From Owenia fusiformis (Eukaryota > Annelida > Polychaeta > Sabellida > Oweniidae), in the NCBI GenBank assembly GCA_903813345.2, contig CAIIXF020000004.1, forward strand, positions 17,903,513 through 17,967,512: a stretch of 64,000 nt of DNA, given 5' to 3'. Shown here in pieces: positions 34,366-61,099 of this stretch. The notes under the pieces were generated by a model. It was not told where the DNA came from, did no database searches, and saw only the letters and a program-made list of their open reading frames with translations. The position numbers and the translations under genes were made by a program. How positions within the stretch are numbered: position 1 is the stretch's first letter; every line of letters begins with the position of its first letter.

Positions 34366-41589
<7,224 letters not shown>

Positions 41590-42002: not shown

Positions 42003-43665
42003 CTCACAGTTTCAAGACAACCCATCCCAAGACAACTCATCCCTAAGACAACTCATCCCAAGACATCTCATCCCCAAGACAACTCATCCCAAGACATATC
42101 ATCCCTAAGACAACTCATCCCAAGACAACTCATCCCTAAGACAACTCATCCAAAGACATCTCATCCCTAAGACAACTCATCCCAAGACATCTCATCCCTA
42201 AGACAACTCATCCCAAGACAACTCATCCCTAAGACAACTCATCCCAAGACATCTCATCCCTAAGAAAACTCATCCCAAGACAACTCATCCCAAGACATCT
42301 CATCCCTAAGACAACTCATCCCAAGACAACTCATCCCTAAGACAACTCATCCCAAGACAACTCATCCCTAAGACAACTCATCCGAAGACAACTTATCCCC
42401 AAGACATCTCATCCCAAGACATCTCGTCCCAAGACAACTCATCCCAAGACAACTCATCCCAAAGACAACTCATCCCTCATACACCTCATCCCTAAGACAA
42501 CCCATCCCAAGACAACTCAGCCCAAGACAACTCATCCCAAGACATCTCATCCCAAGACAACTCATCCCAAAGACAACTCATCCCTCATACACCTCATCCT
42601 TAAGAAAACTCATCCCAGAGACAACTCATCCCTAATACATCTCATCCCAAGACATCTCATCCCTAAGACAACTCATCCAAGGACATCTCATCCGAAGGCA
42701 TCTCATCCCAAGACAATTCATCCCTAATACACCTCATCCCTAAGACAACTCATCCAAAGACATCTCATCCCCAAGACAACTCATCCCAAGACATCTAATC
42801 CCAAGACAACTCATCCCAAGACATCTAATCCCATGACAACTCATCCCCAAGACATCTCATCCCAAGACAACTAATCCCAAGACATCTTGTCCCAAAGACA
42901 ACCCATCTCTAAACAACTCATCTCTAAGACAATTCATCCCACAACAACTCATCCCTAAGACAACTCATCCAAAAGACAGCTCATCCCTCCCTTAGACAAC
43001 TCATCCCTCCCTTAGACAACTCATCCCTACAACAACTCATCCCTAAGACAACTCATCCAAAAGACAGCTCATCCCCCCCTTAGACAACTCATCCCTCCCT
43101 TAGACAACTCATCCCTACAACAACTCATCCCTAAGACAACTCATCCAAAAGACAGCTCATCCCTTCCTTAGACAACTCATCCCTCCCTTAGACAACTCAT
43201 CCCTACAACAACTCATCCCTAAGACAACTCATCCAAAAGACAGCTCATCCCTCCCTTAGACAACTCATCCCTTCCTTAGACAACTCATCCCTACAACAAC
43301 TCATCCCTAAGACAACTCATCCAAAAGACAGCTCATCCCTCCCTTAGACAAGTCATCCCTCCCTTAGACAACTCATCCCTAAGACAACTCATCCAAAAGA
43401 CAGCTCATCCCTCCCTTAGACAACTCATCCCTCCCTTAGACAACTCATCCCTCCCTTAGACAACTCATCCCTAAGACAACTCATCCAAAAGACAGCTCAT
43501 CCCTCCCTTAGACAACTCATCCCTACAACAACTCATCCCTAAGACAACTCATCCAAAAGACAGCTCATCCCTCCCTTAGACAACTCATCCCTCCCTTAGA
43601 CAACTCATCCCTACAACAACTCATCCAAAAGACAGCTCATCCCTCCCTTAGACAACTCATCCCAT
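42003..43665. repeat. Short-unit satellite (GACAACTCATCCCTAA), with 88-bp higher-order part
   Basis: Over 100 copies of a 15-17-bp unit, GACAACTCATCCCTAA / GACATCTCATCCCA. From about 42970 to 43650 the units form a larger repeat marked by CCAAAAGACAGCTCATCC at 42969, 43057, 43145, 43233 and 43321 (88-bp spacing), then at shorter, irregular spacing. It lies 400 bp after the LC3 stop codon and is non-coding. Confidence 0.95.
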
Positions 43666-45042: not shown

Positions 45043-45808
45043 AAGATGGAACAATTTAGTGTAAACGTCTATTCAAAATTAATAAATTGAATTATTTGTT
45101 GTAGCAGTATGTAGATACATGAGAATAATCCAGATCCACAATACAAGTCAATGAGGAATTATAACAAACATAATTCTCATGTAAAACCTGTATAAGTGGA
45201 ACAACCTGGTACCTCTAAAAATGTCTAACTTTCAGAGGTGTTCCACTACACAGGTTTCACTGTATAAATATTGAATTCAATTAACCATCACGTCTATGTT
45301 TAAATAAATAAGTTGAAATTGTCAGAAAACTCCATGTATGTAATGTTAAAGATTAGAAATCACAGCATTGATTCACAGCCATAGTTTGTTCCTTTAAAGA
45401 ACTGCATTCCATATTACATATATAGCTACAGATCTGTTTCAATATCAAACTGTCCACTGGATAGTAATAGGAGATATAAAGCATGATTATTCAAGAAGTG
45501 GTCCACATTATATTTAAAGGGAAAGTCAGTCCTAGAGTTGAATAGATTGCTAGTATTATTCCATATGGTAAAGCGATAATACCAATTGTGCTGAAATATT
45601 AAAATTGCAGCTTTTCAAAGCTTAAGAAAAAACTAAAAAAAAATTTTTTAATCATGGCAATTTATGTCTCATTTTCCCTTTATTTGCAAATGAATAATTA
45701 GAGCACCATACAATTGAAAGTGAGGGCCATTTGTCAATGATTGCGCTTGATCGTATTAATACTGTATCATGACCACTGTTAGTGTGATGTTCTATCCTCA
45801 ATATGAGA

Positions 45809-48800: not shown

Positions 48801-51800
48801 AATGATCGAGATATTAGTTCAAATCTTTTGAACTGTTTATTTTGAATTTATAGTCGACAGACATTTCCACATTTTCATTGTTGGAAAATATCGAGTTTCG
48901 ATCCTGGGAGCCAATCCTCCTTGTCCCAAACCCCAAAAATCATACATGATGCAATTGTGTATTCTTTGGGCTAAGTCCCACTTGGATGAGACAAATCACC
49001 ATCAAACAATGTAACAAACTCTAAATCACTCTTACTTATGATGTTCTGAACAAGAAGAATAGCTACTAAGCAAACTGACCAATGTGTACACATAAACTGA
49101 AAGATTTATCACCAGACTTGAAGGAGCTGTTTATATAGGTGATAGAATGTCTTACCAGAGTATATTGAGTATGGCACATGTACCTAGGCCTGCTAGAACA
49201 GCTGTTCTGAATCCCCTCACCTGGGACCTGACAGGGGCCACCTTCCCATACAACATGGGCATAACATTAATCACACCACCTACAGTAATGGAAAATAAAG
49301 GTTATCATAAGTCTCATATTTTAAACGTTCATTAAATGCTCATTGCGTTCATACTGATGATATTGCCTTCTCTGCTTTCTTACTACATTACATTGTATTT
49401 TAATGATTTTATTATTTGTCAGAAAAATGGTTTCTACATATACTATATACACTTAAGCCTTTATCACAGACGGTCACTACCATTGTTAAATTGTCGTTTT
49501 TTCACTTGACATTCAATGCCTCTATCAACTGCAGCGCTATAAGTAGCCATTTAATAAACATTATCAATCAAATGCAATACAAGTTGACAACTGTACAGCA
49601 TGCCACTCACCCAATGCAACTGTTCCCATGAGGAAAGGAGCCCCAATGTAAGTGAAATCATTATCAATCTAATGCAATACAAGTTGACAACTGTACAGCA
49701 TGCCACTCACCCAATGCAACTGTTCCCATGAGGAAAGGAGCCCCAATGTACGTGAAATCATTATCAATCTAATGCAATACAAGTTGACAACTGTACAGCA
49801 TGCCACTCACCCAATGCAACTGTTCCCATGAGGAAAGGAGCCCCAATGTACGTGAAATCATTATCAATCTAATGCAATACAAGTTGACAACTGTACAGCA
49901 TGCCACTCACCCAATGCAACTGTTCCCATGAGGAAAGGAGCCCCAATGTACGTGAAATCATTATCAATCTAATGCAATACAAGTTGACAACTGTACAGCA
50001 TGCCACTCACCCAATGCAACTGTTCCCATGAGGAAAGGAGCCCCAATGTACGTGAAATCATTATCAATCTAATGCAATACAAGTTGACAACTGTACAGCA
50101 TGCCACTCACCCAATGCAACTGTTCCCATGAGGAAAGGAGCCCCAATGTACGTGAAATCATTATCAATCTAATGCAATACAAGTTGACAACTGTACAGCA
50201 TGCCACTCACCCAATGCAACTGTTCCCATGAGGAAAGGAGCCCCAATGTACGTGAAATCATTATCAATCTAATGCAATACAAGTTGACAACTGTACAGCA
50301 TGCCACTCACCCAATGCAACTGTTCCCATGAGGAAAGGAGCCCCAATGTACGTGAAATCATTATCAATCTAATGCAATACAAGTTGACAACTGTACAGCA
50401 TGCCACTCACCCAATGCAACTGTTCCCATGAGGAAAGGAGCCCCAATGTACGTGAAATCATTATCAATCTAATGCAATACAAGTTGACAACTGTACAGCA
50501 TGCCACTCACCCAATGCAACTGTTCCCATGAGGAAAGGAGCCCCAATGTACGTGAAATCATTATCAATCTAATGCAATACAAGTTGACAACTGTACAGCA
50601 TGCCACTCACCCAATGCAACTGTTCCCATGAGGAAAGGAGCCCCAATGTACGTGAAATCATTATCAATCTAATGCAATACAAGTTGACAACTGTACAGCA
50701 TGCCACTCACCCAATGCAACTGTTCCCATGAGGAAAGGAGCCCCAATGTACGTGAAATCATTATCAATCTAATGCAATACAAGTTGACAACTGTACAGCA
50801 TGCCACTCACCCAATGCAACTGTTCCCATGAGGAAAGGAGCCCCAATGTACGTGAAATCATTATCAATCTAATGCAATACAAGTTGACAACTGTACAGCA
50901 TGCCACTCACCCAATGCAACTGTTCCCATGAGGAAAGGAGCCCCAATGTACGTGAAATCATTATCAATCTAATGCAATACAAGTTGACAACTGTACAGCA
51001 TGCCACTCACCCAATGCAACTGTTCCCATGAGGAAAGGAGCCCCAATGTACGTGAAATCATTATCAATCTAATGCAATACAAGTTGACAACTGTACAGCA
51101 TGCCACTCACCCAATGCAACTGTTCCCATGAGGAAAGGAGCCCCAATGTATGTGAAATCATTATCAATCTAATGCAATACAAGTTGACAACTGACTGTAC
51201 AGCATGCCACTCACCCAATGCAACTGTTCCCATGAGGAAAGGAGCCCCAATGTACGTGAAATCATTATAAATCTAATGCAATACAAGTTGACAACTGTAC
51301 AACATGCCACTCACCCAATGCAACTGTTCCCATGAGGAAAGGAGCCCCAATGTACGTGAAATCATTATCAATCTCATGGTGGATCTCAGAGCCAACAATA
51401 AATGTCACAATCACCTGTAATAATTTAGTGCATATAGTAGTTTTATATCATTAGCAATTGTCATGGGTCTCTTTAATTCATTTCTCATAATGGTATCCTG
51501 GTTTGGATGTGGGTATTATTGCTGGTAGAGGGGCATTTTTGGGGACGAAAAGTGGGTTAAATAGATCTTGATGTGAATATCAGTATACATATAGCTACAT
51601 TTCTATGCATAGAACTACATGTATATTTTTCTTAAAATGTGTTAATCATATGACTGCAAGATTATAATTGTTAATCCTCAATGGTTCTTAAAAAAGGAAT
51701 AAAATAACATTATTTTCTATTTTTCATTGGTGTAAGTCTGTAAGACATGCCATTTTATGGTTACACTTACGGTGCCTAGCAACAGGGACCCCTTGGCAAA

Positions 51801-54800
51801 TGTAAGAATGGATACTATTGGCTGGATGAGTTGTAAGGCAAATACAATGGCTGCAGTGAGCACCCAACAGAATACAGGAATCACATAGATAAACCTAAAA
51901 AGCAAGAAAACATAATGTAAAAATTCACTTTTTATAAATATGAGAATTTGAAGTTATTAAAAATTAGAATATAACATCGGTCTTGGACATTGATCTACTT
52001 TAAGTGGGGAATTTTGTAACCAGGAGTGTACTTTAAAAAGTTCAAGGGAACAACATAATACTTACGGTATTCCAATGACTTGAGCATAGGCCTCACTGCC
52101 AGCCAATGCATAGCAAATCAGCAGTGAAATACTAATATGCAAATAAGAGAAGACATGAATCATAGACATATCACAACAATTGTCACTTTGGCATATTAAA
52201 GCTGCAATTTGAATAGAATTTAATTTATAGGAGATGTGACATTTCTTTATTACAGTATTTAAGTATTCCAAATGTATCTAATCCAATTTTGACAATTAAA
52301 TCAAAACCCATAAAGCACACTAAAAAATGAGTATAGATGTCAAATAATCAATGCACCAGAGACAAATAAAAAAATTGTTATTACATTGTATTATGCGTCT
52401 CTATTTGGACTGATAGAGTGTAGATGAAACATTGAATATTCGCTGATTGACTTTTGCACAATTTGAGAATGATGATATACTTACAATTGTAGAAGAATGA
52501 CTAGATCAAAGAACTGCCTCATCCCACAGCACAGAAACAGCTCAGCTAGCAGATGAAGGTTGGGAGCCTGCACTTCACTCTCTTTGGGAAGAATAACATG
52601 GCCAGCTAGTACTGCATCTATGGGAAACATACAGTCTTAATTCATTTGTCTTTCTAGATGAATTTTGAGCAGCTAAACTGCTTTTTTATATATTGTACTT
52701 GAATCATGTTTAAATACTGAAATAAATGTTCAACATAATCAGGTCAGTTTAACATAATCTCAGGCTGGAAGAGCAAGGCTGTCGTTTATCTAGTATTAGT
52801 TCACCATAGTCAATCAATACATGTATTAATCTCAAATTCAAGATTCGCTATTTTTGATATTTTTATTGTAAAAATGTTTGCTTCGATAATTTCTTTAAAA
52901 TATTTTACAAACTATCCATAATACACACACTCCACACTTTGTTTGTTTTATATCATTTTCCCAACATCAAAATAGATTTTTAGTGTTCCTACCACTAGTT
53001 TCTGTCTCATCATCTGCCTCAGAGAATGTGTCATAGTCAAGTTCTGTCAGTGGCACTGCCTCAAAGTCTGCTCCTTCCTCCTTTTAAACATTAGTATGAA
53101 CAGAATTAATGGAAATAGTGGTAAATATGAACAATATGTTTGGTAAATGTGTACAATATGTTTGGTAAATGTGTACAATATGTTTGGTAAATGTGTACAA
53201 TATGTTTGGTAAATGTGTACAATATGTTTGGTGAATGTGTACAATATGTTTGGTAAATGTGTACAATATGTTTGGTAAATGTGTACAATATGTTTGGTGA
53301 ATGTGTACAATATGTTTGGTAAATGTGTACAATATGTTTGGTAAATGTGTACAATATGTTTGGTGAATGTGTACAATATGTTTGGTAAATGTGTACAATA
53401 TGTTTGGTAAATGTGTACAATATGTTTGGTGAATGTGTACAATATGTTTGGTGAATGTGTACAATATGTTTGGTAAATGTGTACAATATGTTTGGTAAAT
53501 GTGTACAATATGTTTGTTCAAGGTTAAGGTGTAGATCCTTGAGTTTAGATTGGGGTTGAGAAAGCTTGAGCTGAATCAACTTGTGTTTGAGAAAGACAGA
53601 GTCATACTGGGTTGAATTAATATATCATGGACTTTCTTCACTGGGGATCAATTGGAAACGAAGACAATTGTCTTCATTTCAACATGGCCAGACATTCCTG
53701 AGCTAATTGTCTTCTTTTACAGTGATCCCCAGTGCTGCTTGAGAAAATTGGCTCACTGGATGTCAGGAAAGCAGAGACATGCACAAGGTATTTAACTCCA
53801 AAACCTCTCAGTTAGTTAAAGGAAATTTTACATATAGTTTTACTATACTTACCTTTTTATTTAATAATTGTGCTGCATGAGCTCGCTGTAGAAGGTCCAC
53901 GAAAAACACAATCAGAAGGGCCTACAATATATGTACAATACAATACGATATGAAATAATACAATACATGTACAATACAATAGGAAACAATACATTACAAA
54001 ACAATTGTTTTTAGTTTAGCTAATTTTTTGTATATGCTTAAGTTCAAGTAATTATTTGGTTAATCATAAAAAATGTACAGTCTTATACATTAAACGTGAC
54101 ACTTGATACTGGCGAGAAAGTTTTGACTAGTTCAAAGTTGGTTCTAAGTTGACATAATATCATGTGCACTGATATCATTTTTTCTGCGTTGAATAATGAG
54201 CAAAAATAACAAAAATGTATGATATTTAATTACATGTATGTTCACAAAACATTCACTCTGAAGATTCTGTCATTTGTATTGTAGTACTGTAGATTGGGTT
54301 AATTTGGCGCCCGCTTTAATTTGGCGAATTTGGCGAAATTGAAAAATTCGCCAATATAAATCTTCGCCAAAATTTAGAATGAATCCCCGGGAATTATCTA
54401 GGGTATTTCGTCCAGTGTATTTAGGTCACTTCAGGTTAAGTTTTTTCCAAAAATATGAAAAAGTGTCTCTCATAAATTGGCTCAGAACTGGTCAGTCACT
54501 CATTAATACTCAGTGAAAAACTAGAAAGGAAAAGCGCGGTATAGTAGCAGCATCGGTCGAGGTGCAAAATGTAAAGGATGATCTCACAAAAATGTACAAA
54601 CGTGGTGAATATCGCCAGTGGTCCTCAAAAGAAAAAATGAACATAGCCAAACATGCCCATTTACATGGTACAGCGTGTAAGTTTAACATTTTTTTTGCAT
54701 ATCCGTCAAATTAAATAGCCGCCAATATGCCAAAAATAACAAAATCGCCAAATTAAGTAGCGCCAAATTAACCCAATCTACAGTATTATTGTCTATGTCT

Positions 54801-59433: not shown

Positions 59434-60876
59434 TTATGGTAAAGTCTCTCCAGTGACCCTCTCTACCTCAAGCTTGGCATGGTAGATACAATCATTCACA
59501 CTGACACCCTTGTAGGAGGCTCCTAGCAGGCTTAGTGGCAGCTTGTGGCTTTCTAGATACCCATTTATATTATCCATTACTTGGGAGTGTCCGATGACAT
59601 ACTGTGGAATACAATTACGCTGTAGAGTTGTACATACTTCAGAGGGGTCTGCTGTTATCCCCATCTGTTCCCTGACTGCTTCTAGGGCAAGGTCAGTAAA
59701 TGTATCCAAGTTAGCAGTTTCTGGATCCCCAAATAATTGACGGAACCAAGCCCCACCCATCATACATGTGAGCCTAGTTGAGGGCTGGTCTTTGCGATCA
59801 TGTTCAGGGAAATTACACGAGTCATACACTATTCCAAGTACTTTGGAATTCTCAGTAGAGGGGATCAGATGTCCGAATCCCAGAAAAGGCATTACTTGGC
59901 CCTTCAATTCTACATTCACAACTGCTACATCGACATATGGAATTTTAGAAAGTTCACTTGAAAGAAGCTGGTGATTTGTTGAAACTGCAGGTGACAGGTT
60001 CATAGCTGGTAGGGTAGAGAAAACATGGTCAACCTCAAGGATTTCTGAATTATCACAAGTGACCTTGACTCTAGGCCCTGAGAGGTCAAGGTCAGTACAT
60101 TTTGTTTCAGTCATTATCTCAACATTTGGTTCAGCATTTAGAACGTCCACCATCCTGTCTGGAATACCTTGAATGCCATTGTCAAGTGACCAAATAGCCC
60201 AGCGTTCTTTTTTTGATCTTTCCACCAAGGGGCTTATACTCTGAACTTTTTGCTTCTCCCCAATTAAAGCACCTTTTATGATTCCCCCATTTTCTTGTTC
60301 AAATTTCCATAAATCGTGGAAAGTACTTTTAATGCTAAGTTGTTTAGCATCTCCAGCATACACACCTCTGCACAAAGGATCTATAGCATAATTAGCCATG
60401 TCTGAGCCAAGCCTCCTTGCCACAAAGTCATAGATAGTTTCATCTTCACCATTTCTTTTTCCTTTAGTGATAAGATCGTTTATTAGATAGCGAATAAAAG
60501 CTTTATCAAATGGCTCAGTTTTCCTAACTAGACTCTTAAAACTGTTTGGCAGAATATGAATCTTGTTATTCACATAGATGAATCTATTTTGAGCAGCTGG
60601 TCGAGATCGTGGAACAGCAATGATCTTAGATTCCAAACCAAGGTCCTCAGCAAGCTCTAATGCATTTATACCAGCCTGACCACTTCCACGTAAGCTCCTA
60701 GGGCCATGTTCGAATACAGCACCATTGTCTTGACGAACAGACTTTATCCATCCTCCCAAGTGATTAGAGCCCTCTATAAGAATGATACGTTTAAAGGCTT
60801 GTTGAGCTGTTCTGGTCAAATAGTAAGCTGTTGAAAGACCTGCTATTCCCCCTCCTAGAATAGCTGCCACGCTCAT
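59434..60876 (-). CDS. PPOX: Protoporphyrinogen oxidase, intronless
   Basis: An intact 480-codon frame in one exon; human PPOX is 477 residues. Residues 8-15 (GGGIAGLS) with the following helix and LIEGSNHLGGWI form the FAD dinucleotide-binding fold. HGPRSLRG at about 57-64 and the C-terminal LLGASYKGVSVNDCI are characteristic of protoporphyrinogen oxidases and close the FAD site. The enzyme oxidises protoporphyrinogen IX to protoporphyrin IX, the penultimate step of haem synthesis, on the outer face of the inner mitochondrial membrane. ATG at 60876 is chosen because the FAD motif follows at once, as in known family members. No frameshift or stop interrupts it, so it appears functional. The absence of introns is notable beside the intron-rich genes around it and could mean a retrocopy or lineage intron loss. 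Confidence 0.93.
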   Translation of the reverse strand: MSVAAILGGGIAGLSTAYYLTRTAQQAFKRIILIEGSNHLGGWIKSVRQDNGAVFEHGPRSLRGSGQAGINALELAEDLGLESKIIAVPRSRPAAQNRFIYVNNKIHILPNSFKSLVRKTEPFDKAFIRYLINDLITKGKRNGEDETIYDFVARRLGSDMANYAIDPLCRGVYAGDAKQLSIKSTFHDLWKFEQENGGIIKGALIGEKQKVQSISPLVERSKKERWAIWSLDNGIQGIPDRMVDVLNAEPNVEIMTETKCTDLDLSGPRVKVTCDNSEILEVDHVFSTLPAMNLSPAVSTNHQLLSSELSKIPYVDVAVVNVELKGQVMPFLGFGHLIPSTENSKVLGIVYDSCNFPEHDRKDQPSTRLTCMMGGAWFRQLFGDPETANLDTFTDLALEAVREQMGITADPSEVCTTLQRNCIPQYVIGHSQVMDNINGYLESHKLPLSLLGASYKGVSVNDCIYHAKLEVERVTGETLP

Positions 60877-61099
60877 TGTATATAATTGTTTTCACAAGAT
60901 ATTGGTGGTTGAAATGTCACGTAATATTTTCAAGTGGATCACTATTGAAGTCGAGATGTTTAGATTTCCTTTCCTGAATACAAAAATATTTGAAATCCTT
61001 ACAAGACATTCTTTCTGCATTGTAAGAGCCCACACCACACACAATGAAGGAAATGTGACATATAGAAAAGAAATATTGATTACTCTGGCTAAACAGGGT

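Follow-up and report, generated by a model that had tools for sequence, protein, structure and literature searches.

The array and its host gene

The window, which is the whole stretch of DNA that was analyzed (64,000 nucleotides, G000:C4:17903513-17967512 in the assembly), belongs to the annelid Owenia fusiformis, for which our data consist of one haploid assembly. Its minus strand carries, between positions 45500 and 55064, a host gene whose product is hydrophobic and probably a multi-pass membrane protein. The product shows no Pfam or NCBIfam match and no convincing PDB match. Two candidate identities were rejected: TMEM104, as a tblastn search with a TMEM104 sequence gave nothing significant, and a PF01490 amino-acid transporter, as this family has no match at the locus.

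In this gene a coding exon of 100 nt (51414-51315) is followed downstream by 17 near-identical units of ~100 bp. Tandem Repeats Finder calls the array at 49559-51378 with a period of 100, 18.2 copies and a 99% match, and 18 copies at such identity cannot be the result of chance. The array occurs once in the assembly (498 Mb in 525 contigs were searched). The host intron is 2035 nt long as it stands and 331 nt if the extra copies are removed. The features are listed below by their positions in the window.

51771-51894, minus strand: upstream exon of the host gene, ending in phase 0 with donor GTAAGT (open frame and splice consensus, in-frame join)
51315-51414, minus strand: real exon, 100 nt, starting in phase 0 and ending in phase 1, with its last 58 nt as the repeated part
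51363-51373, minus strand: exonic copy of the 11-bp homology GATTGATAATG, with the GA of codon GAG just before it
51309-51314, minus strand: functional donor GTGAGT of the real exon
49559-51378, minus strand: whole tandem array (Tandem Repeats Finder)
51215-51272, minus strand: copy 1, variant ATTTATAATG, unit of 104 bp (extra CAGT)
51111-51168, minus strand: copy 2, variant CACATA, one exonic change
49711-51068, minus strand: copies 3 to 16, identical at 100-bp spacing, each with TTGCATTAG, 58 exonic nt and GTGAGT
49611-49668, minus strand: copy 17, variant CACTTA, one exonic change, next junction TTGCATTTG
49559-49569, minus strand: remnant, with the 10-bp ATTGATAATG at 49568-49559 and the 11-bp GATTGATAATG at 49559-49569, taken as the ancestral intron homology site
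49156-49279, minus strand: next exon of the host gene, which completes the frame of the real exon

The repeat unit is built of 58 nt of exon and 42 nt of intron, and the intron part starts with GTGAGT and ends with TTGCATTAG. A unit-by-unit reading places the first bases of the extra copies at 51272, at 51168 and then in 100-bp steps down to 49668. Every one of the 17 has 58 exonic nt that end in TTGCATTGG, followed by GTGAGT, with TTGCATTAG directly before the exonic part, as had been proposed when the window was read from its letters alone (the sequence-only reading). That reading also placed an AG directly before each exon piece, which holds for all 17 copies and fails at the last junction, ahead of the remnant, which reads TTGCATTTG (TTTG) and has no AG. 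The near-identity it described was found again, in the overall match and in the identical copies 3 to 16. The RNA structure predicted for the unit is ordinary (z = -0.68).

Other repeats and genes lie in the window. Another intron of the host gene holds a 22-bp unit repeated 18 times (53119-53516), which ends ~40 nt before a predicted exon at 53080. Large minisatellites are found at 36646-41361 and 42014-43644, the first with a 123-bp unit whose repeats fill 4 kb, the second with a 16-bp unit present ~100 times with an extreme GC skew (-0.65). At 59434-60891 on the minus strand there is an unbroken frame of 480 aa that matches PF01593, flavin amine oxidase (E 2e-44), and resembles protoporphyrinogen oxidase; it is apparently intronless, in an intron-rich genome.

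Origin of the duplication

An 11-bp direct repeat, GATTGATAATG, is found both in the exon (CATGAGATTGATAATG) and in the intron at the end of the array (CATTTGATTGATAATG), and the junctions inside the array read CATTAGATTGATAATG. When the three kinds of junction are aligned (exon, CCATGAGATTGATAATGATTTC; array end, GCATTTGATTGATAATGTTTATT; array junctions, GCATTAGATTGATAATGATTTC), the homology between exon and array end is perfect over 11 bp and covers 14 of 16 bp in all; this alignment was made for the ends of the present array only. Direct 11-bp repeats at a distance of 50-300 bp are scarce elsewhere in the window (36 in 52.5 kb).

Each array junction is composed of the intron as far as CATT and the exon from AGATTG on. 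An exchange inside the 11-bp repeat yields CATTAG, so that the AG is supplied by the exon's own GAG codon. The duplication thus spans one splice site (GTGAGT, inside the unit) and creates the other (TTAG, at the junction), and the earlier proposal that a single tandem duplication gave both splice-like ends is borne out by the breakpoint, where the AG is imported from this codon. On the assumption that the array end represents the ancestral intron, with TTTG as the original state, one exchange within a short homology would have been sufficient to make the unit and no further mutation would be needed, as judged from one genome. The identical middle and the variant edges are as expected if the array grew by slippage or unequal exchange.

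Reading frames of the possible joins

The normal join, from 51315 to 49279, gives ...TVALGGVINVMP, and no stop interrupts it in the exons tested. The real exon does end in phase 1 and the next one does begin at 49279, as the sequence-only reading had it, and the frame continues across the join. The same reading predicted that any copy spliced in after the real exon would stop translation at once. By computed joins, the real exon followed by a copy reads ...TVALD and then three stops; copy 1, which reads ATTTATAATG, gives DL and then two stops. Whichever copy is added to the real exon, a premature stop follows; the prediction holds for the copies generally, with copy 1 stopping one codon later. 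Three copies together have a length that is a multiple of three, yet the stop lies already in the first of them, and read-through from the real exon into the array also meets a stop. Skipping the real exon altogether shifts the frame. One possibility is absent from the earlier reading: a copy that takes the place of the real exon and is joined to the upstream exon stays in frame and gives a product with 14 residues fewer (VIVTFIVGSEIHHE).

Splice-site strength and spacing

The strength of the junction AG was scored with an acceptor matrix that was based first on 21 and later on 28 acceptors, taken from the host gene and from CCT, myosin and proteasome genes of the same genome. In this small set, in which some borders were inferred from profile matches, the array junction AG scores 2.73 bits against a leave-one-out median of 8.54 and lies below 25 of the 28 true acceptors (28-acceptor matrix). 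It scores above 318 of the 341 other AGs in the host gene (first matrix). The real exon's own acceptor reaches 11.4 bits, and the donor of the array is identical to that of the real exon.

Only 42 nt separate the donor of a copy from the start of the next one, while the shortest intron modelled in the host gene is 171 nt, and by the standard of this gene adjacent copies enclose no GT...AG interval of workable intron length. Splicing of adjacent copies to each other is thus unlikely, and a literal chain of them was rejected on the basis of these gaps. The description of the array as a chain of poison exons is not supported, given these gaps and the weak junction AG (2.7 bits against a median of 8.5).

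Other exon-border arrays in the genome

Repeated exon borders were first seen in the CCT chaperonin genes, which had been taken as a source of reference introns. We sampled 124 exons of CCT, myosin-head and proteasome genes (Pfam PF00118, PF00063 and PF00227) of the same genome and found a tandem array across the border in 12 of them, with up to 20 copies of a donor or nine of an acceptor; the count of 12 is approximate because some of these are two-copy duplications and the borders come from profile matches. Both donor-side and acceptor-side arrays are present in the CCT, myosin and proteasome loci listed here.

L020, 4372-5443, 6916-7390 and 246-645: border arrays
L017, 5384-6154: border array
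L015, 746-1000: border array
L023, 4165-4300: border array
L026, 5227-6323: border array
L032, 936-1208: border array
L036, 1242-1523: border array
L013, 1754-2063: border array

With the border marked by a slash, L020 has 20 copies of ...GATAAAATAAAG/GTATAT and four copies of ...ACATTGTAG/GTGTTAAG, L017 has nine copies of ...TTGTTATCAG/GTTGCCCATCC, and four copies each are found in L032 (...CTATCTTTCAG/GCCACATATGCC) and L023 (ACAG/GTAGGG). In the border arrays that were read directly, a complete exon with one intact splice site is left at one end.

In the sampled loci, 10.2% of the non-exonic and 3.4% of the exonic bases lie in arrays whose period is 20 or more. Among the arrays that are 60 bp or longer, 12 out of 33 cross a border, where 2000 random circular shifts give an expectation of 9.0 +/- 2.2, which shows no sign of special placement or purging; arrays wholly within an exon number zero, against 1.0 expected. 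Arrays appear to form anywhere and, over a border, to be retained because the original border survives. Since border-crossing arrays are common in this genome, the array in the host gene can be regarded as a member of a genome-wide class. Among six donor-side arrays, a positive-scoring AG in the inspected unit is present in two, the host-gene array and that of L013, and is lacking in four of the five others, so that units with all the parts of a pseudo-exon seem to be a subset produced by chance.

The published genome of Owenia fusiformis has 505.8 Mb in 12 chromosome-scale scaffolds, with 43% repeats (PMC9977687). Upstream of a myosin gene, at G000:C9:37986009-37994334, at least ten matches in a row to one stretch of the myosin head (profile ~27-81) suggest a muscle myosin heavy chain with a large set of clustered alternative exons.

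Interpretation

One of the questions raised by this locus is whether the array regulates its gene or is a tolerated accident, both of which had been offered by the sequence-only reading. Of these two options the accident is favoured, given border arrays in 12 of 124 exons that are placed about as at random. The explanation that fits best, and which we hold to be probable, is that the array is a young and tolerated minisatellite, seeded by a tandem duplication over an exon-intron border, and one of a class that is common in this genome. The seed would be the 11-bp direct repeat GATTGATAATG, of which the exon has one copy and the intron a second, 100 bp further downstream. Between these two sites, slippage during replication or an unequal exchange would duplicate the 58-nt exon tail together with 42 nt of intron. 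Later growth would bring the array to 17 extra units, identical in the middle and variant at the ends. As the complete exon with its own donor is still present at the upstream end of the array, the normal join from 51315 to 49279 is expected to persist. By exon definition, a 100-nt exon with a strong acceptor should pair with its nearest donor, and we propose that the array is kept silent in this manner, the acceptors of the copies being weak. Occasional inclusion of a copy would bring a stop at once and probably lead to nonsense-mediated decay (NMD), that is, to noise, and the array is probably nearly neutral. In human genes, alternative splice sites pair with the nearest partner in the recognition unit, which extends across the exon if introns are long, but an overall preference for downstream donors was also reported, so the nearest-donor prediction for the real exon is not certain (PMC9225289). 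Two features of the array also speak against its silence: its junction AG scores above most other AGs of the host gene, and this score is positive, as in only one of the five other donor-side arrays.

Another hypothesis is that the copies act as poison exons in a copy-number-dependent attenuator, in which the length of the array tunes the expression of the host gene. Every copy does have an AG before and GTGAGT behind its exon piece, its inclusion gives an immediate stop, and the score of the junction AG lies within the spread of the true acceptors, near its bottom, with three of the 28 weaker still. Yet this acceptor is weak, neighbouring copies are only 42 nt apart, the near-identical young copies bear no trace of selection on their signals and similar arrays are common in unrelated genes, and for these reasons we consider such an attenuator unlikely. 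A broader form of the idea, that border arrays are a regular feature of the genome and that some of them (including this one, with its AG and GT) dampen expression by copy number through stop-containing products, has a somewhat better but still low probability.

The in-frame replacement of the real exon by a copy would provide an alternative short exon, as the upstream exon, a copy and the next exon together are open and in frame; however, the strong real acceptor (11.4 bits) would have to be bypassed for a weak one (2.7 bits) and a hydrophobic stretch would lose 14 residues, which makes this the least probable of the readings. It is only slightly more plausible, and again very improbable, that the array is an assembly artefact and that the true locus has fewer extra copies or none. 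Fourteen identical copies are a case where assemblers may miscount, but the array takes up 1.8 kb in a contig of 31.9 Mb, its edge copies have private variants, and comparable arrays exist in other genes, some with clearly diverged units. Contig C222, considered as an alternative haplotype that would display copy-number variation, was rejected, having no match to the sampled loci.

The reading that we prefer, the tolerated minisatellite, accounts for the array without any chain of poison exons; the observation from which it started is correct. The interest lies in the class of border arrays, of which the host-gene array is one example. Most work on the choice among identical splice sites has relied on constructs and on natural sites taken in pairs. 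With about one in ten sampled exons carrying a tandem array of its own donor or acceptor, this genome offers a ready-made library for splice-site choice, which spans many genes in living tissue. Such arrays also show a route by which exon fragments accumulate in introns together with splice signals, as raw material for new exons and introns.

Comparison with known systems

Poison exons belong to unproductive, NMD-linked splicing, are defined by their use and regulation and are often conserved; the array is similar to them in that predicted inclusion of a copy puts a stop upstream of later exon junctions. As in minisatellites, its units are head-to-tail and near-identical, and its breakpoints share a short homology. 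The array is like an ordinary intronic minisatellite or VNTR in its tandem intronic units of ~100 bp with an identical middle and variant ends, but unlike these it repeats coding sequence, 58 nt of exon per unit, along with the functional donor. A word search of the open-licence literature found no report of exon-border arrays; the wording for such arrays varies, and absence from the literature is not implied.

The potato RdRp gene, in which a tandem duplication across an intron-exon border gave a new intron, is alike in that the duplicated segment spans the border and brings splice signals (PMC4974935). There, however, the acceptor side was duplicated once and the new intron is spliced, whereas in Owenia the donor side is present in 17 extra copies with gaps of 42 nt. 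In the Rogers model, as far as it is described where it is cited (PMC4974935), introns are gained through duplication of an AGGT-containing exon segment, and multiple 24-bp duplicates are found in fission yeast genes. As cited there, these are also short tandem units in a row, each with a GT and an AG; they lie entirely in exon sequence, while the Owenia unit combines exon with intron and gains its AG at the junction. Competing splice sites in human genes resemble the array in that several donors are available for one acceptor, but the sites compared there are pairs of natural sites that differ in sequence (PMC9225289), whereas the Owenia array sets 18 identical donors in a row.
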